Shown here: positions 12,284 to 47,204 of the stretch, piece after piece
How positions within the stretch are numbered: the stretch's first letter is position 1
Layout: each line of letters opens with the position of its first letter
Source of the DNA: an uncultured Myxococcales bacterium
GTDB lineage: Bacteria; Myxococcota_A; UBA9042
Assembly: GCA_903869075.1 (NCBI GenBank)
Contig: CAIPXZ010000724.1
Location: 1-49,534 of the forward strand
Reading direction: 5' to 3'
DNA length: 49,534 nucleotides
Translations under genes and position numbers: made by a program
The notes under the pieces: generated by a model
Seen by the model: the letters and a program-made list of their open reading frames with translations, nothing else
What the model was told of the DNA's origin: nothing
Databases searched by the model: none

Positions 12284-12893
12284 GCGCCGCCTCGTGCAGG
12301 CCGCCGTGCTCCAGCACAAGCCGCACATCGGCGACGCGCAACGCCTGCGCCGCGTCGTGCGTCACCCAAATCAGCGTCACGCCGGCTTGGCGCCGCGCCA
12401 GCAGCCACGCCTCGGTCGCCAGCGCGCTCTCGGCGTCCAGGTTCGACGTCGGCTCGTCCAACAGCAGCACCGGCGAGCCCAGCGCCACCGCGCGCACAAG
12501 CGACAGCCGCTGCCGTTCACCGCTCGACAGCCGCGCCACCGGCCACGTGCCGCAGTCCACCGGCAGGCCCAGGGCGTGCAGGTCGTCGGCCAACACCTTG
12601 AAATCGCTGAAGTGCTCGGCCACCGTCTCCGCCCACCAGCCCGCCGCGGCCGGCACGTACACGACCTGTTGGCGCCAGCGGTGCGGCGCCACCAGCGACT
12701 GCTGCTGCGCGCCGAGGAAGACGTCCCCGCGGTGCGGATCCAGATCCGCCAGCGCCCGCAGCAGCAGCGACTTGCCGACGCCGGACGGGCCCATGATGGT
12801 CAGGCACTGGCCCGGCGCGGCGGCGAGGTCAAACGGACCACCCGCGGCGGTGTAAATGCCGGCGCAGCGAAAGGCTGGCGGCGGTGCGGTCAA
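12276..12893 (-). CDS. fetA: ABC ATPase of the FetAB exporter
   Basis: A 205-residue ABC ATPase. Walker A is Gly35-Pro-Ser-Gly-Val-Gly-Lys-Ser42, the signature is LSSGERQRL (122-130), Walker B is VLLLDE (142-147), and the switch is His179 (WVTHD). Where the Q-loop is expected (about residues 80-86, VVYVPAAAGWW) there is no glutamine, which is unusual. ATG 12893 overlaps the manC stop (ATGA) and the 3' end overlaps fetB, so manC, fetA and fetB form one coupled unit. Assignment to FetA rests on the FetB partner and short length. Confidence 0.88.
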   Translation of the reverse strand: MTAPPPAFRCAGIYTAAGGPFDLAAAPGQCLTIMGPSGVGKSLLLRALADLDPHRGDVFLGAQQQSLVAPHRWRQQVVYVPAAAGWWAETVAEHFSDFKVLADDLHALGLPVDCGTWPVARLSSGERQRLSLVRAVALGSPVLLLDEPTSNLDAESALATEAWLLARRQAGVTLIWVTHDAAQALRVADVRLVLEHGGLHEAAHG

Positions 12894-13978
12894 AGCAGGT
12901 CCGCGCGGCCGAGCTTGTTCAGCTCCGCGACCACCAAGCGCACGTCCTGCGAGCGGTCCAGCGGCAGCACCAGCGTCGCGTCATCGGTCGCCACCACGGC
13001 CATGTCGCGCAGGCCGATCGCAGCGAGGTACGGTCCCTTGGAAATCAGCACGCTGTGGTGGCTGTCGACCGCCAGCACCGGACCGTGGATGAAGTTGTGC
13101 TCGCCGTCCGGCCGCAGCCCCAGCACGCTGTGCCAGGTGCCGACGTCGGACCAGCCGGCGTCCAGGCGCACGCAGCGGATGTCCGGCTCGTGCTCAGCGA
13201 CGCCGTAGTCGATGCTGACGCTCGGGCAGTTGGGGAACGTCACGCGCAGCAGCGCCTCGAACGCCTCGCCGTCGTAGCGGTGCTTGCCGTCGCGCAGCTC
13301 CGCCAGCGTCCGTCCAATCTCCGGCACATGCGCGTCCAGCGACGCCAGCGCCTTGTCAGCGCGCAGCACGAACACGCCAGCGTTCCACAAGTGCTTGCCG
13401 CCCAACAGGTATTGCTCGGCAGTCTCCAGGCTCGGCTTCTCGACGAACCGCTCGACCGCGTAGCCGCCATCGCCCAGACCATCGCCCAGCTGGATGTAGC
13501 CGTAGCCAGTCTCCGGCGTCGTCGGCTGGATGCCCAGCGTCGCGACGTGGCCACGATCGGCAAATTCGGCGGCGCGCACGATTGCCGCGCGAAAGGCGGC
13601 GGCGTCGGCGACAAAATGGTCAGACGGCAGCAGCACCAGGATCGCGTTCTCGACGATCTGCTCGGCGACGATCGCGGCGATCGCCATGCACGGCGCGGTG
13701 TTGCGCGGCGCTGGCTCGGCGAGAATCTGCCCCGGACCCAGCTCCGGCAGCACCGTCTGCACGGCGTCGCGCAGATGTCCGGCGGTCACGCACAACTGCC
13801 GCTCCGGCGGACACAGCGGCGCGATGCGGTCCACAGTCACCCGCAGCAGCGTCTTGTCGCCAAAAAACTGCAGCAGCTGCTTGGGCTCATGCTTGCGGCT
13901 CAGCGGCCAAAAGCGCGTGCCGGAGCCGCCTGCCATCACCGCGCAGACGATGCGGTCTTGCACCGGGGTCGTCGTCAC
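12890..13978 (-). CDS. manC: mannose-1-phosphate guanylyltransferase
   Basis: It makes GDP-mannose from mannose-1-phosphate and GTP. The 362-residue product has the nucleotidyltransferase signature AGGSGTRFWPLSR (16-28) followed by EPKQLLQFFG, then LAEPAPRNTAPC, LLPSDH, ERFVEKPSLETA, NAGVFVLRAD and the FPNCPSVSIDYGV motif of this family. It lacks the extra C-terminal isomerase cupin of bifunctional ManC/AlgA, so it is the single-function form. It starts at GTG 13978, directly abutting the CoA-transferase stop, and overlaps fetA. With manB downstream it gives a GDP-mannose supply route for envelope glycans. Confidence 0.93.
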   Translation of the reverse strand: MTTTPVQDRIVCAVMAGGSGTRFWPLSRKHEPKQLLQFFGDKTLLRVTVDRIAPLCPPERQLCVTAGHLRDAVQTVLPELGPGQILAEPAPRNTAPCMAIAAIVAEQIVENAILVLLPSDHFVADAAAFRAAIVRAAEFADRGHVATLGIQPTTPETGYGYIQLGDGLGDGGYAVERFVEKPSLETAEQYLLGGKHLWNAGVFVLRADKALASLDAHVPEIGRTLAELRDGKHRYDGEAFEALLRVTFPNCPSVSIDYGVAEHEPDIRCVRLDAGWSDVGTWHSVLGLRPDGEHNFIHGPVLAVDSHHSVLISKGPYLAAIGLRDMAVVATDDATLVLPLDRSQDVRLVVAELNKLGRADLL

Positions 13979-14650
13979 TCAAGCCTCCACGCCGGAAACG
14001 GTCAGTTTGCGCAGCTTGGCCGCCACCCGCAGCGGCGCGCCGGTCAGCCGCAGCACCTCGTCCACGGTGACATCTTCTGCGATTTCAATGAGCTCCAGGC
14101 CATCCGCGGTCACGTCGATCACCGCCAGGTCGGTGACGATCCGGTCGACGCAGCGCCGACCCGTCAGCGGCAGCGTGCACGTCGGCAGGATCTTCGGTTC
14201 GCCTGTTTTTTCGCAGTGTTGCATCGTCACCACCACCCGCCGCGCGCCGGCCACGAGGTCCATCGCGCCGCCCATGCCCTTGACCATCTTGCCCGGCACG
14301 ACCCAGTTCGCCAGGTCGCCGTTCGCCGCCACCTGCAGCGCGCCCAGCACTGTGATGTCAACATGGCCGCCGCGGATCATCGCAAACGACTCCGCCGAGC
14401 TAAAAAACGACGCGCCGGGCATTTCGGTAATCGTCTGCTTGCCGGCATTGATCAGGTCCGGGTCCTCGTCGCCCTCGTAGGGAAACGGTCCGACGCCGAG
14501 CATGCCGTTTTCACTCTGCAAAATGACGTCGATGCCGGCCGGGATGTAGTTCGCCACCAGCGTCGGAATGCCGATGCCGAGGTTGACATAAAAGCCATCC
14601 TTCAACTCTTCCGCCACGCGGGCGGCGATTTCATGACGGGACAAAGGCAT
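13979..14650 (-). CDS. scoB: 3-oxoacid CoA-transferase subunit B, unpaired
   Basis: A 223-residue beta subunit of a family I CoA-transferase (SCOT/ScoB type), which moves CoA from succinyl-CoA to a 3-oxoacid through a glutamyl-CoA intermediate. The catalytic Glu47 lies in [38 protein letters not shown] and [16 protein letters not shown] are typical. ATG 14650 follows GGAGGA with good spacing. The partner subunit A, usually adjacent upstream, is absent: the upstream gene is a HEAT-like protein and the downstream gene is manC. The A subunit must be elsewhere if the enzyme is active. Confidence 0.92.
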
Positions 14651-14674
14651 GGGTCCTCCGCAAATCGCCAGCAC

Positions 14675-15889
14675 TTACGGCTTGGCGGGCTTCTTGGCGT
14701 GGTCGTTTTGGTCCAGACCGGCCAGCTCGCGCCACGGCTTTTCGTCCGAGCCGTAGTGCATGCCGGTCAGGTTCTCCAGCGCGAAAACCACATGATTGAC
14801 AAGGAATTTGCTGTCCAGCCGCAGCAGCGGCACGAGCTCCGGCACTACCGTCTTGTCGCCCAGCGCCGGCAGCAGCCGCAGGATGCGCACCGCCTCGTCC
14901 GGCTCGCTGGCCAACGGCAACTTCTGCAGCCGCTTGACGAGGATCGCCGCCGCGCCCGACGGCTTGAGCGCGACGATCGCCGTCTGCAGCGCGATGCGCT
15001 CGTCCGGCTCGATGTCGTCGCGCACCGCCGCCGCCACCACATGCAGCCCCGCCGACGTCATCTTCAGCGCCACGAGCGCCTGCGCCGCCTCCGCGCGCGC
15101 GCCCGGCGTGTCCAGCCCAGCCAGCGCGGCGTTGTCCGCCCAGGGCGCCGGCACCGCCGCCAGCACATGCAGCGCGGCGCGGGCGACCTCGTTGGGCGTC
15201 GCATCGACGAGCATCGTCGCCAAGCCGACCGCCGCTTGCGAATGCAGCGCCGCCAGCGCGTCCAGCGCCTTGGACCGCACCATCGCCAGCGTGCGCGGCG
15301 CGCCGGCGAGCGCCAGCAGGTCCGGCTCTGCTTCCGCGGTGCCAATCATCCCCAGCGCGTGCGCCGCGGCTGCCTGCACGCGCGGCGTCCCCGCCGACAG
15401 CAGCTGCCGCAGCGCCTGAACCGCGCCTTGGTGTTTCAGCAAGCCCAACGCGCCGGCGGCAAGGATCTGCGCGCGCTGGTCCGGGCTGGCCAGCAGCTTG
15501 AGCAGCGCCGGCGCCGCGCGGGCATCGCCCAGGCGCGCTTGCGCGGCGCGCAGGTCCACAGCCGACGGATCGTCCACCAGCGTCGCCCCGGCAGCATCCA
15601 GCGCATCGACCTCCGAGCGCGCGTCCAGCAGGCTGAGCGCCAGCGCAATCTTGCCCGCTTGCTGCGGCGTGGCGCCTTTGAGCGCCGCCGCCAGCGCCGC
15701 CGCCACCCCGTCGCGGCTGGCCAGCGCCGAGCTGAGCGCCGGGCACGCGCCAAACGCCAGCGTGTCACACTGCAGCACTTCCTTGGCGAGATCCTGCGCG
15801 TCCGCTGACGGCGCGGCTGGCTTCGCGGCATCGGCATGCGCCGGAACGGCCAGCGCGGTCAGCAGGGCAACGGTCAGAAAACGGCGCAT
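14675..15889 (-). CDS. secreted HEAT-like repeat protein
   Basis: A 404-residue protein with a Sec signal peptide (MRRFLTVALLTALAVPAHADA). From about residue 105 to 390 it is an all-helical, Ala/Leu-rich array of HEAT-like units, for example DARAAPALLKLLASPDQRAQ, ALGLLKHQGAVQALRQLLSA and LPALGDKTVVPELVPLLRLD. Such arrays serve as binding scaffolds; no catalytic motif is seen. The C-terminal part (HVVFALENLTGMHYGSDEKP) resembles the ends of other exported HEAT proteins. It ends 24 bp before scoB and begins after an 87-bp gap, so it may share the scoB-manC-fetAB transcript. Confidence 0.75.
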   Translation of the reverse strand: MRRFLTVALLTALAVPAHADAAKPAAPSADAQDLAKEVLQCDTLAFGACPALSSALASRDGVAAALAAALKGATPQQAGKIALALSLLDARSEVDALDAAGATLVDDPSAVDLRAAQARLGDARAAPALLKLLASPDQRAQILAAGALGLLKHQGAVQALRQLLSAGTPRVQAAAAHALGMIGTAEAEPDLLALAGAPRTLAMVRSKALDALAALHSQAAVGLATMLVDATPNEVARAALHVLAAVPAPWADNAALAGLDTPGARAEAAQALVALKMTSAGLHVVAAAVRDDIEPDERIALQTAIVALKPSGAAAILVKRLQKLPLASEPDEAVRILRLLPALGDKTVVPELVPLLRLDSKFLVNHVVFALENLTGMHYGSDEKPWRELAGLDQNDHAKKPAKP

Positions 15890-16951: not shown

Positions 16952-18790
16952 CTACGCGCGCCGCCGCCGCAGCGCCAGCACCACACCGGCCACCAGCAGC
17001 GCCAGCGCGCCCGAGCCCGCTGCCGGAACCGCGCTACAGCCACCCGCCGTCGTCGTGTTCACGGTCGGCGGCGCCACGGTCGGCTCGTCCGGGTTCCAGG
17101 TGATCGGCGGTAGCGCTTTGACAAATTCGGCGCTCAGGCTCGGCTGGCCCAGCTTGGCGTTGTTCAGCTCCGCATCAACCTGGTCGGCAAAGCTCTGATC
17201 GATCTCAATGGGCGCGCCGCTCTCGTCCAACACTTCAATCTTTTCAGCGGGCTCGCCACCCTCACCGACGATCGGCCCCTTGCCGGTGTTGGTTGAATTG
17301 TAGCCGTACGGCCCGTAGCAGGTGCCCGGAGTCAGGCTGGCGGGCATCGGCACTTCGTAGCTGCTGCCGTCGTCCAAGGTGATTTGCGCCACGACCGCCT
17401 CGGTCGAGCCGCTGCCGCAAAGCGGCTTCGCCGTCGCCACGTGCTGGGCGCTGACGGTCGGCAAGTCCTTGTTCCAGGCGAAGATCGGGTCCTTGTTCAT
17501 CTCGTCGGGCGAGACAAGCGTCATCAGCCGCGTCAGGTAAGGCGTTTTTGCGTACGCCGCCTGGACGTCCGCCAGCGGCTGCACGACGCCATCGGCGATC
17601 GCCTGCGTCATGCCCTTGGCGTCAAACGGCTGCTGCGCCATCGCCTGCTTGATCGGGCCGCAGTTGCCGCTGCACGCGTAGGTATTGCCGCAGTTGCCGG
17701 TGTAGCAGCAGTCCTGCTGGACGCAGCTGTAGAATTCCTGGTCGGTCAGGCTGGCGAACGCCGCGGGCTTGGGGATGAAGCTCTGGATGATCGGCTGCAG
17801 CGTCTTGGACTGGCCATTGCCGATGGTCTGCAGCAGCGTGTTCAGGTACGTCCCCGGCTGCGTGATCGCCGCCAGCGCCGTCGGATTCCAGCCCGTCAGG
17901 GCGAACTGCAGCTTCACGTCGGCGGCTTTTTGCGCCAGCTCCGTGGTAAACGCGTGGCCAGACGCCTGGTCGATCGCCTTGGACGCCACGGTCAGGTAGT
18001 TATCGCCCGCGGTCAACCAGTTGATTGTCTTCCAGTTCAGCACCACGTGCAGCCAGTTCTTGGGCACCGCGCGCGCCGGACCCATGGTCCAGATGATAAC
18101 CGGCATGTCCGGGTTCGCCGCCAGCTGCGTCAAGCGCAGCGGCAGGCACGGCGACGGCTCCTGCATCTGCACGACGATCGGCACCAGATCGCCATCCGAC
18201 TTGGCCTTTTGCAGCCGCAGCGCCAGGAACACGAAGCCTTCCTTGGCGTAGGCATCCAGCAGCCCCGTCGTCGCCGCAGGCTGGTCATAACCGTTGTCGG
18301 TCAGCCACTTCTGCAGGTCCGCGCCGGTGTCGCCCTGGATGACCTTGGTCTCGTACGGCCCGACGTTGGCCGACGCCAAGACGGTGACGCCGCCGCCACT
18401 TGTGTCGGTGGTGTTTTTGTCATTCGTGGCGCCGGCTTCCATGGGGTAGGCGCAGAACGGAAAGTGGCAGTTCGGGTCGTTGTTCGGGTATTGCAAGGTG
18501 AAGCTGGGCCGCGTCGCGTACTCCAACACCGTGAAAATGCTGTCCGATCCGGCCTTCAGCGTTGGCACGCTCTGCAGCGGCAACACCCAGCTGAAGTGCT
18601 GCGATGGCCCTTGGTAGGTGATCTGGATGTGGACGGTGATCTGCGCGCCGTCCTGGATGTACAGCACGCGCTCGGCCGCCTGGTTCACCGGACTCTGGCT
18701 GTTGCAGAAAAAGCCGCCGCACGCCCACGCGGGCGCGGCGAACAGCGCGCTGGCGGCGGCGAGGAGGCGCAGGAAGAATCGGCTGGACAT
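16952..18790 (-). CDS. DUF2330 secreted protein with MYXO-CTERM-like anchor
   Basis: A 612-residue exported protein. ATG 18790 follows AGGAG and opens a Sec signal ending AWA|CGGFFC (residues 20-29), exactly where DUF2330 proteins begin (CGGFFC, then VHIQITYQGPSQHFSWVLP). A Cys-rich insertion near the middle (CVQQDCCYTGNCGNTYACSG) suggests disulfides. The last 28 residues are Cys585 after two Gly, a hydrophobic segment and the cluster RRRRA, the layout of MYXO-CTERM sorting tails, so I infer processing and surface anchoring. It has its own promoter and is divergent from the thioesterase. The molecular function of DUF2330 is not known to me. Confidence 0.85.
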   Translation of the reverse strand: MSSRFFLRLLAAASALFAAPAWACGGFFCNSQSPVNQAAERVLYIQDGAQITVHIQITYQGPSQHFSWVLPLQSVPTLKAGSDSIFTVLEYATRPSFTLQYPNNDPNCHFPFCAYPMEAGATNDKNTTDTSGGGVTVLASANVGPYETKVIQGDTGADLQKWLTDNGYDQPAATTGLLDAYAKEGFVFLALRLQKAKSDGDLVPIVVQMQEPSPCLPLRLTQLAANPDMPVIIWTMGPARAVPKNWLHVVLNWKTINWLTAGDNYLTVASKAIDQASGHAFTTELAQKAADVKLQFALTGWNPTALAAITQPGTYLNTLLQTIGNGQSKTLQPIIQSFIPKPAAFASLTDQEFYSCVQQDCCYTGNCGNTYACSGNCGPIKQAMAQQPFDAKGMTQAIADGVVQPLADVQAAYAKTPYLTRLMTLVSPDEMNKDPIFAWNKDLPTVSAQHVATAKPLCGSGSTEAVVAQITLDDGSSYEVPMPASLTPGTCYGPYGYNSTNTGKGPIVGEGGEPAEKIEVLDESGAPIEIDQSFADQVDAELNNAKLGQPSLSAEFVKALPPITWNPDEPTVAPPTVNTTTAGGCSAVPAAGSGALALLVAGVVLALRRRRA

Positions 18791-19423: not shown

Positions 19424-19463
19424 AAAAATGCCGACGCCGGCGAGGTTACCCGCGCCGGCGTCG
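19424..19463 (-). terminator. intrinsic terminator of the barrel-metzincin operon
   Basis: A perfect 11-bp stem CGACGCCGGCG (19432-19442) with CGCCGGCGTCG (19453-19463) and a 10-nt loop. Read on the minus strand it is followed by GCATTTTT (T-run 19424-19428), 22 nt after the metzincin stop. The hairpin may also stop transcription from the convergent thioesterase gene, although the T-run on that side is poor. Confidence 0.75.
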
Positions 19464-19484
19464 ACAGTCTTCTGGCGAAAACGC

Positions 19485-22400
19485 TTACGGGAACAGGGCC
19501 TTGGACGCGGGCGTCAGGTCCAGACCGTACGCGCTGACCGCTTCCCGCAGGTAGAACGGGATGGTCACGTACTGCTTGAGCTTCATGCACGCCTGGTTGT
19601 CGGCGCAGGTGCAGCCCGAGTTATCCGTCGCGCTGCAGTTCGCCGTGCCACCGTTGGTGGTGACCGGCTGCATCGCGGGGTCGTACTTGACCAGCGCCGC
19701 GCCCGACTTCGGGTCCACCGCCGGCAGGTACCACTCCGGCGTACCGTCGCCGTCCAGGTCCGAGCCCGCCGTTGTGACGTACGCGTCCTTGAGCAGGCTG
19801 TTGGCGTATTCCAACACGCGCGCGCCAATGCCCTTCTGCACGGTCTTGCCAAAGATGGTCTCCTTGCCAAAGTACCGCGCCACGTAGGTCTTGCCGTCGG
19901 CATAGTGGAATTCCATGCGGTTGGCGCCGAGGTTCGGATCCGCGTCCGTGCCCAGCTCCCACAGCCGCATCTGGTCCAGCCAGTTCTGCTGCTGGTTCTC
20001 CATCAGGTACAGCATCGTCCAGGCGATGAAGAACTTCTGCTGCTCGTAGCTGATCTGCGGGTCGATCGCCGCGACGGCCGTCGGCTGCACCGCGCCAAAC
20101 GGCGTTGTGTTGTCCTGACCGTACGCGCGGCAGATGGTCGAGCCAGCGCCCGGGAAGCAGGACACCGGCGTCGCGCCGTACCACGACGTGAAGCCGAGGC
20201 CCTTGGTCGGGTACTGCGAAGCATCGACTTCCGGGTCGCCGCCGTCGGACTTCAGCGAGATGCGCGCGCCCTTGACGAAGTCGTCGCCGGTCAGCGCGTT
20301 GGCGATGAAGCGGCGGTAGCCTTCCGGGAACAGGTCGGCGATGGAGACCGAGCGGTAACGCGCGTCCTCAAAGTCGCCCAGCGTGGAGCTGATGAAGTTG
20401 TCGACCGACTCGGTCAGCAGCATCGCGACGCCCGCCTTCTCGTAGTACGAGCCGGCATTGAGCGTGAACTCGGAGTCGTACTCGCCCTGGTTATCCGCCA
20501 GCGCGTTCTCGACCGGCTTGCCGCCGAACGACACCGTCTCGAGCAGACCCGTCGCGCCGTTCGGCACGATGAGCTTGGTCGCCGGCGGCGTGTTCGCATT
20601 GGAGCCCGCCGTCGCGCGCAGCACGCCCGCCGTGTCCTTGTAGTGCGGGCCAGCTTCCGGCCGCGCCGTGATCATCGTGAAGTGGTCAAACACCATCGAC
20701 GCCGCGAGCACGGAATCCGGGAAGAAGTTCTGCGCCGCGTAGTTCCACAGGTCGTCCGGATTCAGGTTCTGCTCCAGCGCGATGTCGCGGTAGATGTTCC
20801 GGTACAGGCCGAGGCCCTTGGCGCCGTCGCGCATCTTCTCGTAGTACCGCGTGAGCGAGCGGTTGTAGGCGTTGCGAATCGCAAAGCTCTTCCGGCCGCG
20901 GCGGTAGTTGTCGAAGATGTGGTTCACTTCCGGCTGGGTGATCATGAAGTTGAAGATTTCGTAGTTGTCCGCGCCATTGTCGTGGCGGTAGACGCTGGCG
21001 TTGCCGAGGTCGGCCCAGGTGTCCGTGGCGAAGCCGTACGGCACGCGCGTGCGGCCATCCTTGTCGATGGCGGCGCCACCGCGGTAGTACTGCACGTTCG
21101 CGTACTGCGTCGCGTCCGGCAGCGCCAGTTCCTGCCACTGCACGTAATCCACCGGCTGCGCGCGGCAACGGGTGTAGCCGTTGGCGCCCTGCACAAGCAG
21201 GCCGTCCAGCAGCGGGCTGAACTGGCCGTCGCGGTTGTCATCCCAGCGGCCCGGCTTCCAATTGCTCGGATCCGAGATCGGCGCGCAGTTGCCGATGAGC
21301 GCGTAATTCTTCTGGTATTCCGAGTAGTGGATGTTCGTCGTCGCGCCCTTGGTGGAGCCGATGACCGGCTGCAGACCGAGGATGCCGCCGAAGTTGTCCA
21401 TCTTGCCCAGCGCGCCCACGCCGCGCTTCTGGCCGGCGTTGTAGCTGGTGTCCGAGAACACCGCGGCGACGTCGCCGTAGAACATCGACGGCGCATGGAA
21501 GTCGTACGCGCCCAGACCCAGCAGGTCCTGCGTCGTCTCGCCGGCGTAGTCCATCACTGACGACTGCATCCACATCCACACGAGGTTGTCGCGCTCGGTC
21601 GTGGTCACCGGGTCGTAGTAGCGCGGGCCAACGCAGTTCTCGGCGTTCGCCGTCGACTGCAGGTTTGTGCACTTCTTGGTGACGCTGCCGTCATTGGTGC
21701 GCAGCTGCCAGTACTGCGGGCGGAAGTTGAACGCGTCCGCCGACGAGATGAAGTTGTGGCGCAGACCGACCGAGTGACCCATTTCGTGAATCACCACGGC
21801 GTAGTGCACGCGGCGTGCCAGGTACTTGCGCATCTTTTCCGCGCGGGCCTGCTTGCCGGCGGTGAACGCCTCGTCGGTCATGTTCGGATCGGTCTTGGTC
21901 GGCTCGAACTTGCCGAACTTGTCCTGCAGCACCCTGCCGAGGCCGGCGATCGAGAGCGGCGCATCGGCCATCTCCATTTCGCAAGCGCCGCGGGCGGCCA
22001 TGGCGTTTTCCTTCATCTGGCGCAGGTTGCGCTGGATGGTCGGGTTGCCGCCGCGCATCGGCGAGATCATGTCCATCAGGCCCGAGGTGATCTGCATGCC
22101 CTGCACGCCCATCAGCTGCTGCATCATCGGCGTCATCAGGTCCATCTCGAACTGCGTGTTGGCCGCAGCCTCGCGCTTGGCCATGTACGACGGCGCGTTG
22201 ACCGACGCCGCGTTATGCTGCGCCGTGATCGCCGACAGCTTCTGCGCCGCGCCGGCCACCAGGGTGGCGGCCTCCGGGTGCTGCTGGGCGAACTGCTGGG
22301 CGCGCGCCGGGTCGATCTGCGTACCGGTCGAGCTGGTGCGGCGCGCATACTGGTCCGCGTTCACGGTGCCAGCCAAGCCGTTGGCCGAGGCCGCTTCCGC

Positions 22401-24371
22401 CGCCGCGCTCCAGTTCTTGATGTACTTGCCTTCGGTGATGTCCGAAGCCTGCAGTTCGCCAGCGGCATAGCGCGCCATGTCGACGGTGCCCTGGCTCCAC
22501 AGCTCGTTGATGTAGGTCCAGACGTTGATGCTGGCGGCAACTTTCTCGCCGTTGGTCGGGTCGGAACCATCGACCATGATGCCCCACGGCGACGGCGTCG
22601 CGGGCTCCACGATGCCGTTCACCTGGTGGTAGCGCAGGTCGCCGCGGCGGACGTGCAGCGCCGCATCGCAGGTCGCGACGGTCGTCAGGTCACCCGCGGT
22701 GTGCGCGTTGAAGCACGCCTCCGCGGTCAAGGTCGCGGGCAAGCGCTTGTCAGCCGGCGCGCAGATCGCCGGGTCATTGGCTTCCACCGGGCTGTGGCAA
22801 AGCACAACCATTTCCGGCAGCTTGGCCAGGGCAACCACGCCCGGCGCCAGATTGCGCTTGGCAGTGCCGCCCAGATCGTCGGCGATGGCGATGCACGCCG
22901 CTTCCACGCGGTTCTTGTCCTTGTAGGCGATGCCGTGGCGGCAGTCGTCCACTTCCTTGGCGAGCGCGATGGCGTCTTCGTTGTCGTCCTGCTGGCCAAA
23001 ATACACCGGGAAGCTGGTCAGGCACTGCGCCGGGTCCGTGCCCACGCGCTTGCATTCCGCATACTTGGCTTCCTGAGCGGCGGCGCGGAGCGCAACGTCC
23101 CACTCGTGGGTCGCGTCCTCGGTCGGCTGGAAGTATTCCGGGTTGCTGCCGTCGGCGTAGTACCACGCGATCGGCTTGGCGACGCGGACCTGGTACGGCA
23201 GCGTGCAGCGCTGGCGGAAGGTGTCGCACTGCGAGCCGCCCTTGCCGGTCGCCTTGGTGACCGCGGCGCACTCGTCTTCGGTGCCGTCGCCGTCGGTGTC
23301 GCGGTGCGGGTCGAGGCCGTACGGCGTGGTGGCGGTGGTGAAGCACGCGGTCTCGCCGGTCATGGCGACGGGGTCGGTGTAGTAGTGGCTGCGCTCCCAA
23401 ATGTTGTAGCGCTCGACAAAGCGGTGCCACAGCTCATCGGTCAGGCCGTAGTTGCGGGCGTAGCCCAAGCGCTCGGACGTGAACGCGCCGGCGGACTGGA
23501 AGCGGTAGCCGTCCCATTCCTTGGGCTCGTAGTCGCTGTCCACGACCTTGCGGAACGAGTGACGCAGCGTGAGCTCGACCGGGTTGCAGGTCGCCGCGGG
23601 CGCCTGGCCGCCCGAGAAGTCGGCGTCGAGGAAGCAGGACGGGTACTTGCTGATGCCCCAGCCCAGCGAGGACAGGTCGATCATGCCCGGGCGCGCGAAC
23701 GCCTTGGTGGTGACGTCGAAGTAGCTGCCGTCGTCGGCGAAGTACGGCGCGTCTTCCTGGCTCGGATCGACGACGTCGTAGGTCAGCGCCTCGTAGGTGA
23801 TGCCGCCGATCACGCCCATCATCGACAAGGTGTCGAAGTCATAGCTGTCGGTGTTCATGTTCTTCGACCAGTCGACGCGGAAGTAATCCCGTTCGTACCA
23901 CGGCCGATCCTGCGAGTTTTCTTCGATGACGTTGTACTGCTCGCCCGTCGTCGAGTTGTACGCGCGCTTGATGTCGAAGTGCGATTTGATCGCGAACGCG
24001 GCGACGATGATGCCGTTCTCCGTCATCTTGCCAACGCCCTTGCCGTCCGAGCCGGCAATGCGCTCGTAGGAAAGCCGCGCGATCAGCAAGTCCTCGGTGA
24101 TCTGCCACTTCACGCGCGACAGCGGCTGCGCGTACGTCGACGTGAACAAGCCGTCCTGCGCCGCGCCGTAGCCGACATCGGTCACCGTGGTCCGCGCCCA
24201 GAATTCCGGGTCATCGGACGTGTCGATGAGATTGGCGCCCACGAAGAACGACTTCTGCAGGGCGTACGGCTGCACGTGGTTGATAGGCGCGCGTTCCTGC
24301 GCGCAACCACTGACAATTGCAGCGATCAGCAGGCAGGGAAGGACGAGCGAAGTGAGGCGACGGAGGTTCAT
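19485..24371 (-). CDS. giant metzincin-type zinc metalloprotease lipoprotein
   Basis: A 1628-residue protein. ATG 24371 follows AGAGGA and gives a lipoprotein signal with lipobox VSGC (Cys23); the longer frame to 24455 would hide it. The extended zinc motif HEMGHSVGLRH is at 862-872 (three His plus Glu863) and a Met-turn candidate Met940 (SSVMDYAG) follows 68 residues later, as in metzincins. The motif with HN directly after resembles the zinc-dependent metalloproteases carrying DUF4953/PF16313. Two Asp-rich Ca-type loops (DTDGDGTEDEC; DLDGDGTPEW) flank a long Cys-containing N-terminal half and a C-terminal half ending in SALFP-like sequence. It should act at the outer membrane or cell surface. 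It is the second gene after the beta-barrel, 84 bp apart. Confidence 0.85.
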   Translation of the reverse strand: MNLRRLTSLVLPCLLIAAIVSGCAQERAPINHVQPYALQKSFFVGANLIDTSDDPEFWARTTVTDVGYGAAQDGLFTSTYAQPLSRVKWQITEDLLIARLSYERIAGSDGKGVGKMTENGIIVAAFAIKSHFDIKRAYNSTTGEQYNVIEENSQDRPWYERDYFRVDWSKNMNTDSYDFDTLSMMGVIGGITYEALTYDVVDPSQEDAPYFADDGSYFDVTTKAFARPGMIDLSSLGWGISKYPSCFLDADFSGGQAPAATCNPVELTLRHSFRKVVDSDYEPKEWDGYRFQSAGAFTSERLGYARNYGLTDELWHRFVERYNIWERSHYYTDPVAMTGETACFTTATTPYGLDPHRDTDGDGTEDECAAVTKATGKGGSQCDTFRQRCTLPYQVRVAKPIAWYYADGSNPEYFQPTEDATHEWDVALRAAAQEAKYAECKRVGTDPAQCLTSFPVYFGQQDDNEDAIALAKEVDDCRHGIAYKDKNRVEAACIAIADDLGGTAKRNLAPGVVALAKLPEMVVLCHSPVEANDPAICAPADKRLPATLTAEACFNAHTAGDLTTVATCDAALHVRRGDLRYHQVNGIVEPATPSPWGIMVDGSDPTNGEKVAASINVWTYINELWSQGTVDMARYAAGELQASDITEGKYIKNWSAAAEAASANGLAGTVNADQYARRTSSTGTQIDPARAQQFAQQHPEAATLVAGAAQKLSAITAQHNAASVNAPSYMAKREAAANTQFEMDLMTPMMQQLMGVQGMQITSGLMDMISPMRGGNPTIQRNLRQMKENAMAARGACEMEMADAPLSIAGLGRVLQDKFGKFEPTKTDPNMTDEAFTAGKQARAEKMRKYLARRVHYAVVIHEMGHSVGLRHNFISSADAFNFRPQYWQLRTNDGSVTKKCTNLQSTANAENCVGPRYYDPVTTTERDNLVWMWMQSSVMDYAGETTQDLLGLGAYDFHAPSMFYGDVAAVFSDTSYNAGQKRGVGALGKMDNFGGILGLQPVIGSTKGATTNIHYSEYQKNYALIGNCAPISDPSNWKPGRWDDNRDGQFSPLLDGLLVQGANGYTRCRAQPVDYVQWQELALPDATQYANVQYYRGGAAIDKDGRTRVPYGFATDTWADLGNASVYRHDNGADNYEIFNFMITQPEVNHIFDNYRRGRKSFAIRNAYNRSLTRYYEKMRDGAKGLGLYRNIYRDIALEQNLNPDDLWNYAAQNFFPDSVLAASMVFDHFTMITARPEAGPHYKDTAGVLRATAGSNANTPPATKLIVPNGATGLLETVSFGGKPVENALADNQGEYDSEFTLNAGSYYEKAGVAMLLTESVDNFISSTLGDFEDARYRSVSIADLFPEGYRRFIANALTGDDFVKGARISLKSDGGDPEVDASQYPTKGLGFTSWYGATPVSCFPGAGSTICRAYGQDNTTPFGAVQPTAVAAIDPQISYEQQKFFIAWTMLYLMENQQQNWLDQMRLWELGTDADPNLGANRMEFHYADGKTYVARYFGKETIFGKTVQKGIGARVLEYANSLLKDAYVTTAGSDLDGDGTPEWYLPAVDPKSGAALVKYDPAMQPVTTNGGTANCSATDNSGCTCADNQACMKLKQYVTIPFYLREAVSAYGLDLTPASKALFP

Positions 24372-24455
24372 GGCATTCCTCTGGGTGAACAGACGGGCGG
24401 TCAACATCAAAATGGCGGACGTCAGGTGAGCGGTCCCTGGGTAGCTATCAGACAA

Positions 24456-25697
24456 CTAGTGGGGCAGACCATCCAGCGCCACGGACAGCTCCAAATAGGC
24501 CGTCGTGTAGCGGTTGATCATCGGGGTTTCATAGGTCGAATCGGCTTTGAGCTGCGAGTTGTACGTCTCCAAGCCGATGCCGGCGCCAAGCCAGCTCAGG
24601 ATCGAGTAGTCGACGCCCGCGCCCCAGTACATGAGCGCGCGGAAGTTCTGGTCGCCCGCGGCGGCAAGCTGCGTCGGCGACGAGCCGACAACCGGGATGG
24701 TGGCGGCGCTGAGCGACGGCAGCCAATCCATGATTTCACCAGCCGAAACCGAGACGCTCAGCTTGTCCGTGATCGAGTAGCTCAGCGAGCCGATGGCCAG
24801 GATGCGGTTCTGGGTCGAGCGCACGCCCGACGATTGCAGCGACGGGTCGCAGCCGAACGCATCGCCGGTGCACGTGGTGATCGGCTGGGCGTTGTACTGC
24901 ATGGTCGTGGACTTGTAGAAGCTGTGCTGGAAGCGGCTCGTCAGCGACACCGTCAGGTCGCGCCAGGTGTAGCGCGCGCTCAAGCCAATGCCCGGCGCCG
25001 TGTACAACTGCTTGGCAATCGAGGCCTTCGACGTCGGCAAGCCCAACATGCCCTGCAGCGTCAGGACAAACGCCGACGGCGGCTTCTCGCCCTTCTCCGA
25101 CTTGAACCAAGCCGCCGTATTGAGCGCCGACCAGGCAAACGACAGCATCGTGTCGGACAGCTGCGGCTCGCGGTAATACGTCGAGTTGCCGGTGTTGGAC
25201 AGCTCGACCGTCGCGTATTGCCAGATGCCGACGCTCATCGTGTCGTTCAGCTGAAAGCGCGGCGCAATCATCAGGCCCAGCCCCTCGTACGGCAGGTAGC
25301 TCTGCTCGTAGTCCGGCGCAAAAGCCGTGGTGCCGGTCAGATTGCGAAACGCGATGGTCCCGCGCCACGGCCAGGTCTTCTTTTCGGTCGCCGCGACTTC
25401 GGCGGTGGCGACGGGCAAAGTGGACGGCGCAGCGCTCTCGGTGGGCGATGCTGGCACGGCTGGCGCGACGGCTGGCGCCGGCGTGACGACCACGGCGGCA
25501 GCATCGGGTACTGCGGCAGGCGCGACGGCAGGGGCAGCGGCGGCGGGGGCAGCCGAGGCTGCGGGCGTGTCGGGCGGGTCGCCAGCCAAAGCGGCCGTCG
25601 GCGCGAACACGATGCCGAGCGCGCACACCACCGTGGCGGCAACATGGGCCGGGACGAATTGGGCGCGCAGACGAAGGAAAACGGCGAACCTGGACAT
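24456..25697 (-). CDS. outer-membrane beta-barrel protein with Ala/Pro linker
   Basis: A 413-residue exported protein starting at ATG 25697 after GGGAG. It has a long Sec signal (to AALA|GDPP), then an Ala/Pro/Val-rich linker of about 60 residues, then a domain of alternating beta strands with aromatic edges (FRNLTGTTAFAPDYEQSYLP, MSVGIWQYATVELSN, YTWRDLTVSLTSRFQHSFYK, LEVSVALDG-like end). One Cys pair (TCTGDAFGCD) may form a loop disulfide. It looks like a porin or transport barrel; the linker could span the periplasm or bind peptidoglycan. It is cotranscribed with the metzincin lipoprotein and so probably works with it, for example as anchor or export partner, which is inference. Confidence 0.75.
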   Translation of the reverse strand: MSRFAVFLRLRAQFVPAHVAATVVCALGIVFAPTAALAGDPPDTPAASAAPAAAAPAVAPAAVPDAAAVVVTPAPAVAPAVPASPTESAAPSTLPVATAEVAATEKKTWPWRGTIAFRNLTGTTAFAPDYEQSYLPYEGLGLMIAPRFQLNDTMSVGIWQYATVELSNTGNSTYYREPQLSDTMLSFAWSALNTAAWFKSEKGEKPPSAFVLTLQGMLGLPTSKASIAKQLYTAPGIGLSARYTWRDLTVSLTSRFQHSFYKSTTMQYNAQPITTCTGDAFGCDPSLQSSGVRSTQNRILAIGSLSYSITDKLSVSVSAGEIMDWLPSLSAATIPVVGSSPTQLAAAGDQNFRALMYWGAGVDYSILSWLGAGIGLETYNSQLKADSTYETPMINRYTTAYLELSVALDGLPH

Positions 25698-25737: not shown

Positions 25738-25768
25738 ACACCGAACATTCCGTACACCGAACATTCCG
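25738..25768 (-). repeat. tandem operator-like repeat in the leader of the barrel gene
   Basis: Two identical 15-bp units, ACACCGAACATTCCG on the plus strand, at 25738-25752 and 25754-25768 (16-bp period). Each holds a GAANNTTC half-palindrome core. An inverted partial copy, CGGAATG, lies at 25809-25815 and overlaps the -10 of the promoter. This arrangement is what a repressor bound downstream of and over the promoter would use. No matching regulator is identified. Confidence 0.5.
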
Positions 25769-25874: not shown

Positions 25875-28382
25875 CTAGTCTATCCAGCTGATTGCTTCGT
25901 TGTCGGCGGCAAAGCAAAGGGTCAACGTTTCGCCGGTTGGGCCTTCGGCCGTCTGCAAACTCAGCGTTGCCTGCCAAACCCCTGCCCGCAGCCGCGCCAG
26001 CGCGCACGCGTCCGCGAGGCGGCTGCGGTGGTCAAAGACCAGCGGCCCCTCGGCCTCCGCCGCTGCTTTCCAGGCTGCAAGACGCGCCGCCGTCCACGGT
26101 TCGCCGGCGGGATCCGGCGCCAGCTGCGCCGCGACATCGTCCAGCGCGCCCGCCACCAGCGCCTGCAGCAGCGCCAGCGCCTCCACCCGCGCCCGCGCCC
26201 GCAGCGCCTTGTCGGCAGCGTGCGGGTCCGGCGGCAATGCTACAAGCACTTCAGGCGCTTCCACGCCGGTCTTCAACCGCTGCCACTCGTCAAGCAGCGA
26301 GCGATCGACGCGCGCCAGCACCGCCCGCAGCCAGGCGATGAGCTCCAGCAGCCCGTCGCTTTTGAGATCCTCCGGGACATTTTGCACGAGCGCCTTGTAC
26401 ACCTGCATCAGGTAGCGCAGCAGCACGCCTTCCACGGTTTGCAGGCCAAGCTCGCGGACATATTCGTCAAAAGTGCACCACGCCTCCGCCATCTCGCGCA
26501 CCACGCCCTTGGGGCGAATGGCGGTTTGCGTCACCCACGGGTGCTGTTCACCAAACTTCTCAAAATTCGCGTAGATCCAGTCCGCAAGCGGCTTGGGCCA
26601 GGTCACGGCGTCGACGAGCTCCTTGCGCTCTTCATACGCCACGCCGTCATTTTTCAGCTCCGCCAGCAGCAGCTGCTTGTCGCGTTGCGCTTGCGCTTTC
26701 AGCACTTGCGACGGGTTGTCGAGAATTGCCTCGGTCAGCGCGAGGATCTCGTTCGGCTCCGTCGGCCGGCCTTCCTCCGCGGTCTGCGCGTCCAGATCGT
26801 CCAGCGCGCCAACGAGCCACAGCGACAGCGCGTGGTGCAGCGAGAAATCGCGCTGCAGGCCGATCGCCAGCCGCGCGATCTTGCCGCGCCGACCATCGGG
26901 TCGCGGCACCAAATCGACGATGCCATTGCGCCACAGCGCCCGAAATAGCCGCGCAAGGTCCCGCTGATGCTGCAGTTTTTGCGCCGGACGCTCGTGACTG
27001 CGGCGGATCAGCGCCACGACGTCGCGCAGCCCGCCTTGCCCCAGCTCGGCCTCGGTGCGCGGCAACATCGCCAAAATCAGCCCTTCGTCGACGCGAAATA
27101 CCGACGTCAGTGGCTCCGGCCGGCCATTTTGCAGCCGCTCGAACGTCTCGGCATTCCACGGCACAAAGCCAAATTCCGGCGGCTTGGCTTTGACAAACGG
27201 CTTCGGTCGGCCGTGCTGGTCGATCTTCGCCTCCATGCGGCGGTTGTAAATCACATGCTCCGGCGCCTGCGCCACCACCCAACCGGCGTCGTCAAAGCCC
27301 TTGCGCCCGGCGCGCCCGGCCAGCTGGTGGAATTCGCGCACGCTCCACAGCCGGGTATTTTCGCCGTCAAAACGGCACAGCTTGGTGAAAACCACCGTCT
27401 TGATCGGCAAGTTGATGCCCACGCCCAGCGTGTCCGTGCCGCAAATCACCGGCAGCAGACCTTGTTGCGCCAGCTTTTCGCACAGCAGCCGGTAGCGCGG
27501 CAGCAGCCCGGCGTGGTGCAGGCCGACGCCGTGGCGCAGCAGCCGCTGCACGTCTTTGCCGTACGGGCTAGGAAAGCGTTGGCCTTCAAGCACTTGCGCG
27601 ATGCGCCGTTTCTGGTCCTTGCTGCACAGCTCCATCGACGTCAGCGCGTGCGCCGCCTCGCCGGCCTCGCGCTGGCTCGCGTGCACCAGGTAGACCGGCG
27701 CGCGGCCGGATTTCAGCAGGTCGTCCAGCGTCTCGGTCAGCGGCGTCTCGCGGTAGTCAAACTGCAGCGGCACCGGCCGTTCGGTCGCCGTCACAAGCTT
27801 CACGTCGCGGCCGGTCAGCGCCACGAGCGCCTCGGCGATGCCGGTCGTGTCGCCCAAGGTCGCGGAAATCAGCAGGAACCGCGCGTGCGGCAGCGTCAGA
27901 AGCGGGGTCTGCCACGCCATGCCGCGGTCCTTGTCGGCGTAGTAGTGGAACTCGTCCATGGCGATGTCAGCGTTTTGAATCGACTTGTCGCCGTGCAGCG
28001 CCAGCTGCGCCAGCACCTCGGCGGTACAGCAGAGCACCGGCGCGTCGGTGTGCACGGCCGCGTCGCCGGTCGCCAAGCCGACGCGATCGGCGCCGAGCTG
28101 CGCGCACAGCGCGAAGAACTTCTCGCTCACCAACGCCTTGATTGGACTTGTGTAAATGGACCGCCGCCCCGCCGCCAGCGCCAGCACGTGCATCCCTTCC
28201 GCCACCAGCGACTTGCCTGAACCGGTCGGCGTCGCGAGGATGACGTGGTTGCCCGCCGCCAGCTCCAACAGCGCCTCCTCCTGCGCCGGGTACAACCGCC
28301 GGCCGTTGGCCGTCGCCGCGTCGACAAAGGCCAGCACCGCTTCGTCGGGATCCAGGGCGTCCTGCAAAAACTCAAGCGCCAT
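25875..28382 (-). CDS. Ski2-like superfamily 2 helicase with DUF3516-type C-terminus
   Basis: An 835-residue ATP-dependent RNA/DNA helicase. Motif I is ATPTGSGKS (50-58), motif II DEFH (143-146), motif III SATLGD (173-178), and motif VI QLAGRAGRKG (353-362), with GTDTLGVGINLP before it. The C-terminal half (for example AWCTFDEYVRELGLQTVEGV and LLRYLMQVYKALVQNVPEDL) is the conserved region annotated DUF3516 in similar proteins of Actinobacteria and Myxococcota. Such proteins are likely RNA helicases involved in RNA turnover; this is from family resemblance. ATG 28382 lies 15 bp after the histidine-kinase stop, so it may be read from the efflux operon. Confidence 0.88.
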   Translation of the reverse strand: MALEFLQDALDPDEAVLAFVDAATANGRRLYPAQEEALLELAAGNHVILATPTGSGKSLVAEGMHVLALAAGRRSIYTSPIKALVSEKFFALCAQLGADRVGLATGDAAVHTDAPVLCCTAEVLAQLALHGDKSIQNADIAMDEFHYYADKDRGMAWQTPLLTLPHARFLLISATLGDTTGIAEALVALTGRDVKLVTATERPVPLQFDYRETPLTETLDDLLKSGRAPVYLVHASQREAGEAAHALTSMELCSKDQKRRIAQVLEGQRFPSPYGKDVQRLLRHGVGLHHAGLLPRYRLLCEKLAQQGLLPVICGTDTLGVGINLPIKTVVFTKLCRFDGENTRLWSVREFHQLAGRAGRKGFDDAGWVVAQAPEHVIYNRRMEAKIDQHGRPKPFVKAKPPEFGFVPWNAETFERLQNGRPEPLTSVFRVDEGLILAMLPRTEAELGQGGLRDVVALIRRSHERPAQKLQHQRDLARLFRALWRNGIVDLVPRPDGRRGKIARLAIGLQRDFSLHHALSLWLVGALDDLDAQTAEEGRPTEPNEILALTEAILDNPSQVLKAQAQRDKQLLLAELKNDGVAYEERKELVDAVTWPKPLADWIYANFEKFGEQHPWVTQTAIRPKGVVREMAEAWCTFDEYVRELGLQTVEGVLLRYLMQVYKALVQNVPEDLKSDGLLELIAWLRAVLARVDRSLLDEWQRLKTGVEAPEVLVALPPDPHAADKALRARARVEALALLQALVAGALDDVAAQLAPDPAGEPWTAARLAAWKAAAEAEGPLVFDHRSRLADACALARLRAGVWQATLSLQTAEGPTGETLTLCFAADNEAISWID

Positions 28383-41789: not shown

Positions 41790-42479
41790 ATGAAACCGCT
41801 GCCGCACAACCTGACCGCCGCGCAAACCCTCCAGCAATTCCAGACGTTGGCGGATCTGGATCGCGTCCGGCGGCCCGGTCAGCAGCGGCTGGATTGGCCG
41901 GATCTTGTCGGGCGGCTTGTGGAGGTCGTCGGCGGGCCGCGCTCCCAGCGGCTGGCCTGGCTGGCGCAGCTGACGACGCAGGTGCAGGCGGCGGGCGACG
42001 TCGCCGTGTGGCTGCAAACGCCTGAAAGCATGGCTTTTCCGCCCGACCTGCAGCTGGCTGGCGTGGCGCTGGACCGGCTGCCGTTGCTGCGGCTGGCGGA
42101 CTTTCCGGCGCAGCTGCGGGCCGCGGACGTGCTGCTGCGCTCGGGCGCGTTTGGCCTCTGCGCGATCGACGCTACGGCGGCGAGCCAGCGCGCGCTGGAC
42201 GCCTCGCGGTCGCTGGACAATGCGCTGGGACGGCTGCTGGGGCTGTGTCAAAAGCACGCGTCCGCGCTGGTGTTTTTGACGCCGGAGCCGGCCAACGGTG
42301 AGCTGCAGCCGGAAAACGCTGGATTTCTGCAGACTTCCCTGGTTTCGCTGCGGCTGACCGTGGCGCGCGATCGCGACGTGCCGCGGCGGCTGCGGCTGGA
42401 CGTGAAAAAGGACAAGCGCCGCGGACCGGCGACGTTGCGGGCGGAAGTCAGCGGGGGACCCGATGGCCTGGAGCTGTGA
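41790..42479 (+). CDS. imuA: ImuA, SOS mutasome accessory protein
   Basis: A 229-residue RecA-like accessory protein that acts with ImuB and DnaE2 in damage-induced mutagenesis. RVRRPGQQRLDWPDLVGRLV, EVVGGPRSQRLAWLAQLT and VAVWLQTPESMAFPPDLQLA follow the ImuA pattern (PGG..ELVGP.SGRT; vawiD..aFdP). The P-loop is degraded: GGPRSQRL lacks the Gly-Lys-Thr core, so ATP binding is doubtful. ATG 41790 lies just 6 nt after the TATACT box with no clear ribosome site, so the message may be leaderless. The stop overlaps imuB by 17 bp. Confidence 0.85.
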   Translation: MKPLPHNLTAAQTLQQFQTLADLDRVRRPGQQRLDWPDLVGRLVEVVGGPRSQRLAWLAQLTTQVQAAGDVAVWLQTPESMAFPPDLQLAGVALDRLPLLRLADFPAQLRAADVLLRSGAFGLCAIDATAASQRALDASRSLDNALGRLLGLCQKHASALVFLTPEPANGELQPENAGFLQTSLVSLRLTVARDRDVPRRLRLDVKKDKRRGPATLRAEVSGGPDGLEL

Positions 42480-44040
42480 CGCCAAGCGCCTCGCCTGCGT
42501 GGACGTGCCGGCGCTGCCGCTGCAGTGCCTTGTGCGGCGGCAACCGGAGCTGGCGGCGCTGCCGGCGGTCATCGTCGATGAGCTGCATCCGCAGGGCGTT
42601 GTGCTGTGGACCAACCGCGCGGCGCGGCTGGCGGGCGTGCGGACCGGCGCGCGCTACGGCCACGCGCTGAGCCTGTGCGCCCAGCTGCGCGCGGGGCTGG
42701 TGCCGGACGCCGAGCAGCAAGCGGCGATTACCGAAATTGCCGAGCTGCTGCGCACCTTTACGCCGCTCGTCGAGCCAGCGCGCCAGGAGCCCGGCGTGTT
42801 CTGGCTGGACGCCAACGGCCTGACGCGCTTTCACCCCGAGCTGGCGCTGCCGGCGATCCACGCGCTGTGGGCCGACGAGATTCGCCAAAATCTGCGCGCG
42901 GTTGGCTGGCACGCCGCGGTGGTGCTGGGCTTTGACCGGCTGGCGACCTACGCGATCGCCCGGCACTTTCACGGCGTGCGCGTGCTGGCTGATCCGGCGC
43001 AGGAGACCCGCGCGTGCGGGCGCGTGCAGCTGGCGAGCCTCGGCGCGGCGTGGGGCATCGCGCCCAAGCTGCGCGATGAGCTGGAGCGGCTGGGCGTGGC
43101 GACGCTGGGTGAGCTGGCGGCGCTGCCGGAGACGGCGCTGCGCGAGCGCATGGGCCTGCAGGTCGCGCTGCTGCGGCGGCGGCTGGCGCACGACGTGCCG
43201 GCGCCGCTGGCGCCCGAGCTGCCGCTGCCGGAGCCGGTGGCGGCGCGCGATTTCGAGCCGCCGGACAACAACGCGCAGCGCCTGCTGTTTGCCGCCAAGG
43301 GCCTGCTGGCGACGCTGTTGCCGCTGCTCGTGGCCCGGCGCGAGGCCGTGGCGCGGCTGGACGTGCTGCTGGTGCTGGACCACGCGCCGAGCTGGCCGCT
43401 GCAGCTGCAACCGGCGGAGCCGACGCTGCAGGAACTGCAACTGCTGGATCTGATTCGCCTGGCGCTGGATCGCACGCCGCTGCCGGCGGCGGTGCAGACG
43501 CTGCGGCTGGCGCTGCACGGCGTACCGGCGACGGCGTCGCAGCTGGCGCTGTGGCGGCTGCAGGGCCAGCGCGATCCGCACGCGGCGGCGCTGGCGCTGG
43601 CGCGGCTGCGGGCGCTGTTTGGCGAGGAGGCGGTGGGGACGGCGACGCTGCGCTCGGCGTGGCTGCCGGAAGGGCAGTTCGCGTGGCAGCCGCTGCGCAA
43701 GCTGCAGATCCAGACGGCGCGCGCGCCGGACGAGCCGGCCAACGTGGTGCGCCTGCCACAGCAGCCGGCGGTGCGCCCGGTGCGGCGTCTGCTCGCCCAG
43801 CCAGCGCGGTTGCCGCCGCGACCCGAAGGCAATCGGCCGTGGCGGCTGGCGCCGTTTCGCCCCGAGACCGTGGTGCATTTTGCCGGACCGTACCGGCTGG
43901 CCGGCGGCTGGTGGCGCTCCATCAGCCAGACCGACCGCTGCCGCGACTACGGCTACGCCACAACCGACCGCGGCACGGTGCTGTGGGTCTTCCATGAGCC
44001 AGCGAAGAACGCATGGTTCTGCCAAGGTTTTTTGGAATGA
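42463..44040 (+). CDS. imuB: ImuB, Y-family polymerase-like mutasome protein
   Basis: A 525-residue Y-family polymerase relative without a full active site. Asp14 (ACVDVP) and Asp116 (FWLDANGL) keep two catalytic positions, but the Glu after Asp116 is Ala117, so it is probably not a polymerase itself. A beta-clamp motif QLALW (360-364) is at about the place where M. tuberculosis ImuB has QLPLW. The C-terminus has [14 protein letters not shown] and TVLWVFHE, a feature of ImuB tails. It recruits DnaE2 to the clamp at lesions. The ATG lies 17 bp inside imuA and the stop overlaps dnaE2 (ATGA), giving strict coupling. Confidence 0.93.
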
Positions 44041-47000: not shown

Positions 47001-47204
47001 GAAGACGAGACCGGATTTTGCAACCTCGTGGTCTGGAAGGACATCATGGCGCGTTTTCGCGTCGTCGCCCGCACGGCGCAGCTGCTCGGCGTGACCGGCA
47101 AGCTGCAGGCCGAGGACGGCGTTGTCCACCTGATCGCCGAGACGCTGTGGGTGCCGGAGCTCAGCCAGCCGATGCCGCTGCCGTCAAGCCGCGATTTTCA
47201 TTGA
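44037..47204 (+). CDS. dnaE2: error-prone DNA polymerase III alpha-like, DnaE2
   Basis: A 1055-residue C-family polymerase that performs translesion synthesis. An N-terminal PHP domain begins [20 protein letters not shown]. The active-site aspartates are Asp392 and Asp394 ([10 protein letters not shown]) and Asp559 ([10 protein letters not shown]). [50 protein letters not shown] and the C-terminal OB-like part ([19 protein letters not shown]) are typical of DnaE2. ATG 44037 overlaps the imuB stop (ATGA); ATG 44013 inside imuB is possible. Expressed in the SOS response from the imuA promoter. Confidence 0.96.

Follow-up and report, generated by a model that had tools for sequence, protein, structure and literature searches.

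A conserved gene pair of an outer-membrane beta-barrel and a giant lipoprotein metzincin in myxobacteria

In a 49,534-nt stretch of DNA from an uncultured Myxococcales bacterium (contig CAIPXZ010000724.1 of assembly GCA_903869075.1; hereafter the window), a gene for an outer-membrane beta-barrel stands directly upstream of a gene for a giant lipoprotein with a metzincin zinc motif, which raises the question of whether the two proteins work together and, if so, what the barrel contributes to the protease. Both genes are on the minus strand. The barrel ORF covers positions 24456..25697 (start ATG at 25697, 413 aa) and the protease ORF covers positions 19485..24371 (1628 codons), with an 84-bp gap on the same strand (24372..24455) that carries an AGGA ribosome-binding site before the protease ATG at 24371. 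RNA folding revealed no terminator-like fold in this gap (z +0.95) and a strong Rho-independent terminator 3' of the protease gene (minus strand, 19424..19468), in which a 14-bp GC stem is followed by a U-tract (−43.4 kcal/mol, z −6.19). The two genes form an operon, and in this respect the neighbouring ORFs and the single terminator described in a first-pass annotation of this DNA were borne out. The single promoter that it had also assigned to the pair was not confirmed, as a sigma-70 scan found none upstream of the barrel (one site in the region, intragenic, against 0.7 expected) and was uninformative on this point; when the upstream regions of close relatives were aligned, no clear common element was found. 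Two near-tandem copies of GGAATGTTCGGTGT are located at window positions 25738-25767, 40-70 bp 5' of the barrel start, and this doubling was not seen in the compared relatives. Further upstream on the same strand, a helicase gene (DEAD, Hel308-like, DUF3516; 25875-28382) stops 177 bp short of the barrel start codon and is unrelated to the pair.

The protease has a lipobox, VSG/C (residues 20-23; minus strand, 24303..24314), whose C23 was invariant in 21 aligned relatives and which has no Asp at position +2 (VSG/CA), as expected of an outer-membrane lipoprotein. A conserved stretch, CAQERAPIN-VQ, follows the lipobox, and CAxERxPINRVQ was found in barrel-less loci too. The HExxHxxGxxH zinc motif of the metzincin clan is present as HEMGHSVGLRH (residues 862-872; minus strand, 21756..21788), together with a candidate Met-turn at Met940 (minus strand, 21552..21554). 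The zinc ligands His, Glu, His and His were invariant in 61 relatives and the Met column was invariant in alignments of both 21 and 61 relatives, so the motif is no chance match; the complete zinc motif and Met940 were found at the residues given in the first-pass annotation, and the lipobox that it mentions was found too. In several long-type metzincins the Gly of the motif is replaced by Ala (loci L111, L113, L125, L131, L133, L148, L152, L153, L163, L165, L169-L172, L174 and L175). Across the 21 relatives, which share 54-87% identity, hundreds of columns, including those of the zinc ligands and the Met, were invariant. In a separate analysis, 24 columns were at least 90% cysteine with the lipid Cys counted in. 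Two calcium-type loops were also recognised, DTDGDG at residues 358-363 (minus strand, 23283..23300), where 57 of 64 full-length relatives have the pattern DxD/NxD/NG, and DLDGDG at residues 1538-1543 (minus strand, 19743..19760), where the pattern occurs in 44 of the 64.

The nearest Pfam name for the protease is DUF4953 (PF16313), under which we found no literature. We rejected it as the protease family: in the 'Met-zincin' proteins of DUF4953 only the zinc motif region is alike, the match being limited to residues 852-879 and about 28 of 316 profile positions, with a score of 22.1 bits against a curated cut-off of 24.2 (25.0 bits in a genome search). The window protease does not reach this cut-off across the domain, its 21 relatives match equally weakly, and its paralogues score over the cut-off, again mostly across about 30 residues. 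Searches of NCBIfam returned nothing useful and sequence searches of the PDB returned nothing. An AF2 model of residues 430-1628 (pLDDT 83.6, pTM 0.86) matched no solved structure in the PDB at E <1 by Foldseek, and a small metzincin core is possibly hidden among additions in this model; membership of the metzincin clan therefore rests on the motif. We concluded that the protease represents a large, highly conserved and undescribed Myxococcota family, outside the well-described protease families.

The barrel protein consists of a signal peptide, an Ala/Pro-rich linker at about residues 36-108 and, according to sequence and an AF2 model, a barrel at about residues 111-407. The model, which started at residue 95, has 12 strands (pLDDT 83.9), and its best Foldseek match was FapF (E 1.8e-8, TM about 0.5-0.64), so that the predicted fold is FapF-like. 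By sequence, FapF appeared among the weak profile matches at E 0.73, which is not a significant relation, and a search of the PDB gave nothing significant. Pfam and NCBIfam searches with the window barrel alone gave no match, a few of its relatives weakly touch the Pfam families OMP_b-brl and Phenol_MetA_deg, and no TonB-dependent receptor match was found in Pfam. The N-terminal coiled coil and helical plug of FapF are absent from the barrel sequence, and no helix precedes strand 1 in the model from residue 95. The long Ala/Pro linker mentioned in the first-pass annotation is indeed present, as are the 413 residues, but it proved to be a local feature of the window barrel and is not conserved, many paired barrels starting almost directly behind the signal peptide.

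We then asked how often the two genes are neighbours elsewhere. From 80 named myxobacterial loci, 71 had sufficient upstream sequence by our own count, and in 38 of these 71 a barrel gene immediately precedes the protease gene on the same strand, with a median gap of 14.5 bp and nine 4-bp ATGA start/stop overlaps. When paired loci with less than 75% protease identity were compared, another gene within four positions was shared in only 20 of the 507 comparisons, which are not independent because the loci are related. The adjacency of barrel and protease is not accidental, and the pair recurs across much of Myxococcota beyond common gene order. In a set of 71 relatives, the long-type protease was found in 23 genomes, with a barrel adjoining in 18; the other five belong to one genus (g7), where a barrel with the signature described below is on another contig. 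The gene order is reversed with a 4-bp overlap in one genome, and in another the barrel is two genes downstream. These figures depend on gene calls made by a simple ORF rule in the fetched loci, on whole-genome searches in which a limited number of candidates was scored per genome, and on genomes that are mostly MAGs; the trees were built by a quick method. In the Polyangium loci, a conserved upstream gene of 430 aa was considered as a second partner and rejected as a plain neighbour; from reading its sequence, we take it to be histidinol dehydrogenase (HisD).

Barrels were found beside more than one type of metzincin. The barrels of the window family form one group (SH-aLRT 100), whose partner is either the long metzincin or one of about 1250 aa that resembles the long type mainly in its N-terminal domain and around the zinc motif. 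In 13 genomes of this family searched with both queries, ten had the long type, three had the short type and none had both. A tandem pair of metzincins, about 1500 and 1800 aa long, was preceded by a barrel in 17 loci (that of the window's own genome and 16 others), and three tandem-type loci had room for a barrel but lacked one. The own-genome locus (L086, contig C83, 8369-19569) is a paralogous operon, in which a barrel from this broad family precedes tandem giant metzincin lipoproteins of 1819 and about 1520 aa. The same genome also encodes a 1172-aa protein with the metzincin motif (L087, 1996-5511) and a matrixin-like 241-aa fragment with the motif (L088, 3-728), neither with a recognised barrel alongside. 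In genus g7, both kinds of barrel are unlinked from the metzincins yet retained.

A set of barrel positions is associated with the metzincins. This signature (T265, C276, C283, R293, T378, N395 and R396; stretch 24510..24905, minus strand) falls in loops L4 and L6 and in strand 11, was kept in barrels next to a long or a short metzincin as well as in the five g7 barrels that are unlinked, was retained in part only by tandem-type barrels, and was mostly missing from 29 orphan barrels. Mean conservation was 2.36 bits in the extracellular loops vs 1.92 bits in the periplasmic turns, and reached 3.02 bits in L3 and 2.84 bits in L6, with loop sidedness defined by assigning the barrel N-terminus to the periplasm, as is usual for outer-membrane barrels. 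On the model, the metzincin-associated positions are mostly in predicted extracellular loops, among them C276, C283, R293, N395 and R396. The signature may partly reflect common descent, since the paired barrels are nearly one group on the tree, and the loop conservation may reflect pore gating.

The protease also occurs by itself. In Sorangium, Polyangium and other Polyangiales, it has its lipobox and zinc motif with no adjacent or signature barrel, and only distant barrels were found elsewhere in Polyangiales genomes. Three of the barrel-less loci are on Sorangium cellulosum chromosomes titled complete, where the missing barrel cannot be put down to an incomplete genome. Given that these lineages keep the protease, the barrel is not generally needed for its anchoring or export.

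Taken as a tentative proposal that we rate somewhat below an even chance, the two genes would encode an envelope proteolysis module whose 12-strand, FapF-like barrel docks the metzincin and/or lets peptides through its pore. The barrel would be made together with the giant outer-membrane lipoprotein metzincin, whose own lipid would tether it to the outer membrane, most likely on the outer face of the cell; the conserved extracellular face of the barrel would dock the enzyme, and small products such as peptides would pass the pore. We regard the barrel as an accessory that does not itself move the protease through the membrane, since the protease is present in some lineages that have no such barrel, and passage of a folded protein of ~175 kDa with about 24 conserved cysteines through a 12-strand pore is unlikely. 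The conserved cysteines and DxDxDG loops would fit an outside-exposed protein, but cysteines and calcium loops occur in periplasmic proteins too, which counts against the surface reading, and the predicted similarity to the FapF fold would fit export equally well as a peptide pore. The pairing from which the first-pass annotation derived a surface proteolysis module is conserved, and the module is still the leading idea, while joint function and surface display are what we infer. Many myxobacteria feed on other microbes. A broader form of the proposal, which we consider rather doubtful, would be a surface digestion machine specific to Myxococcota, in which a FapF-like barrel serves as dedicated extracellular dock and peptide channel for interchangeable giant metzincin lipoproteins of the long, short and tandem types.

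The main rival of the docking module, unlikely in our estimate, is export of the kind served by FapF and FapD in the functional-amyloid Fap operon of Pseudomonas, with a metzincin on the periplasmic face that trims or clears a polypeptide leaving via the barrel. Default lipoprotein sorting leaves a protein periplasmic, in favour of such export, and FapF is both the top fold match and one of the weak profile matches. The Fap operon likewise contains a protease gene together with that of the 12-strand barrel that is the nearest solved fold, and in Fap secretion through FapF requires a separate periplasmic protease (PMC5557850). However, the window barrel differs from FapF in having no coiled coil, plug helix or significant sequence match, its conserved positions are extracellular and not periplasmic, no third conserved operon gene was found as cargo among the loci compared, there are no amyloid genes here, and FapD is a C39 cysteine peptidase as opposed to a giant lipoprotein metzincin.

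Less plausible is a role for the metzincin in envelope quality control, with the barrel as its client or cofactor, a reading that we judge quite unlikely. An enzyme encoded next to an outer-membrane barrel could act in the assembly or turnover of barrels, and the protease is about 54% identical across families where the barrel is about 25%, which fits a general enzyme whose client evolves faster. On the other hand, a general quality-control enzyme needs no dedicated barrel, and the same barrel lineage persists where one metzincin type replaces another.

That the barrel anchors or exports the protease, as the first-pass annotation had suggested, is improbable. The operon arrangement agrees with it, and in Myxococcus xanthus secretion of the protease PopC needs the barrel Oar (PMC6434023), so that a functional link between an outer-membrane barrel and a protease has a precedent in myxobacteria. 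Oar is, however, a large TonB-dependent transporter and not a 12-strand pore, and PopC is soluble, with no lipoprotein metzincin involved. Moreover, the protease in the window bears its own lipobox, the complete Sorangium genomes and other Polyangiales, Polyangium included, keep it without the barrel, and its roughly two dozen conserved cysteines suggest a folded, disulfide-bonded enzyme; this part of the annotation was not upheld. Least probable is mere co-regulation, in which one condition calls for both envelope proteins but the two are not direct partners. The loss of adjacency and retention of the protease in Polyangiales and genus g7 would agree with this; barrels beside three metzincin types, the exchange of partners, a reversed gene order and the fact that genus g7 kept both barrels when its two operons came apart speak against it.

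Barrels with dedicated proteases are already known for TonB-dependent import, PopC secretion and amyloid export. In protease-associated import by FusA/FusC and YddB/PqqL, a barrel and a metalloprotease are encoded together as they are here, but there the barrel is a TonB-dependent transporter and the protease a periplasmic M16 enzyme (PMC6793856), whereas the pair described here combines a 12-strand barrel with a lipoprotein metzincin; the window protease has no M16 match in Pfam and carries the metzincin motif instead. The porins WzpX, WzpS and WzpB beside OPX genes in Myxococcus were also identified via conserved adjacency to a partner, but are 18-strand polysaccharide porins (PMC9603273), in contrast to the 12 strands predicted here. 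If our proposal is true, it would add a small 12-strand barrel that works with giant lipoprotein metzincins and is widespread in myxobacteria.

Three other regions of the window were noted in passing. A 974-aa ORF at 12884-15808 had no Pfam match at E 0.001. Downstream of the pair, past the terminator and on the same strand, lies a gene for a DUF2330 protein with a MYXO-CTERM-like C-terminus (16952-18790). At 42463-47204, a Y-family polymerase-like gene (IMS) overlaps one for a DnaE-type polymerase, an arrangement known from mutagenesis cassettes.
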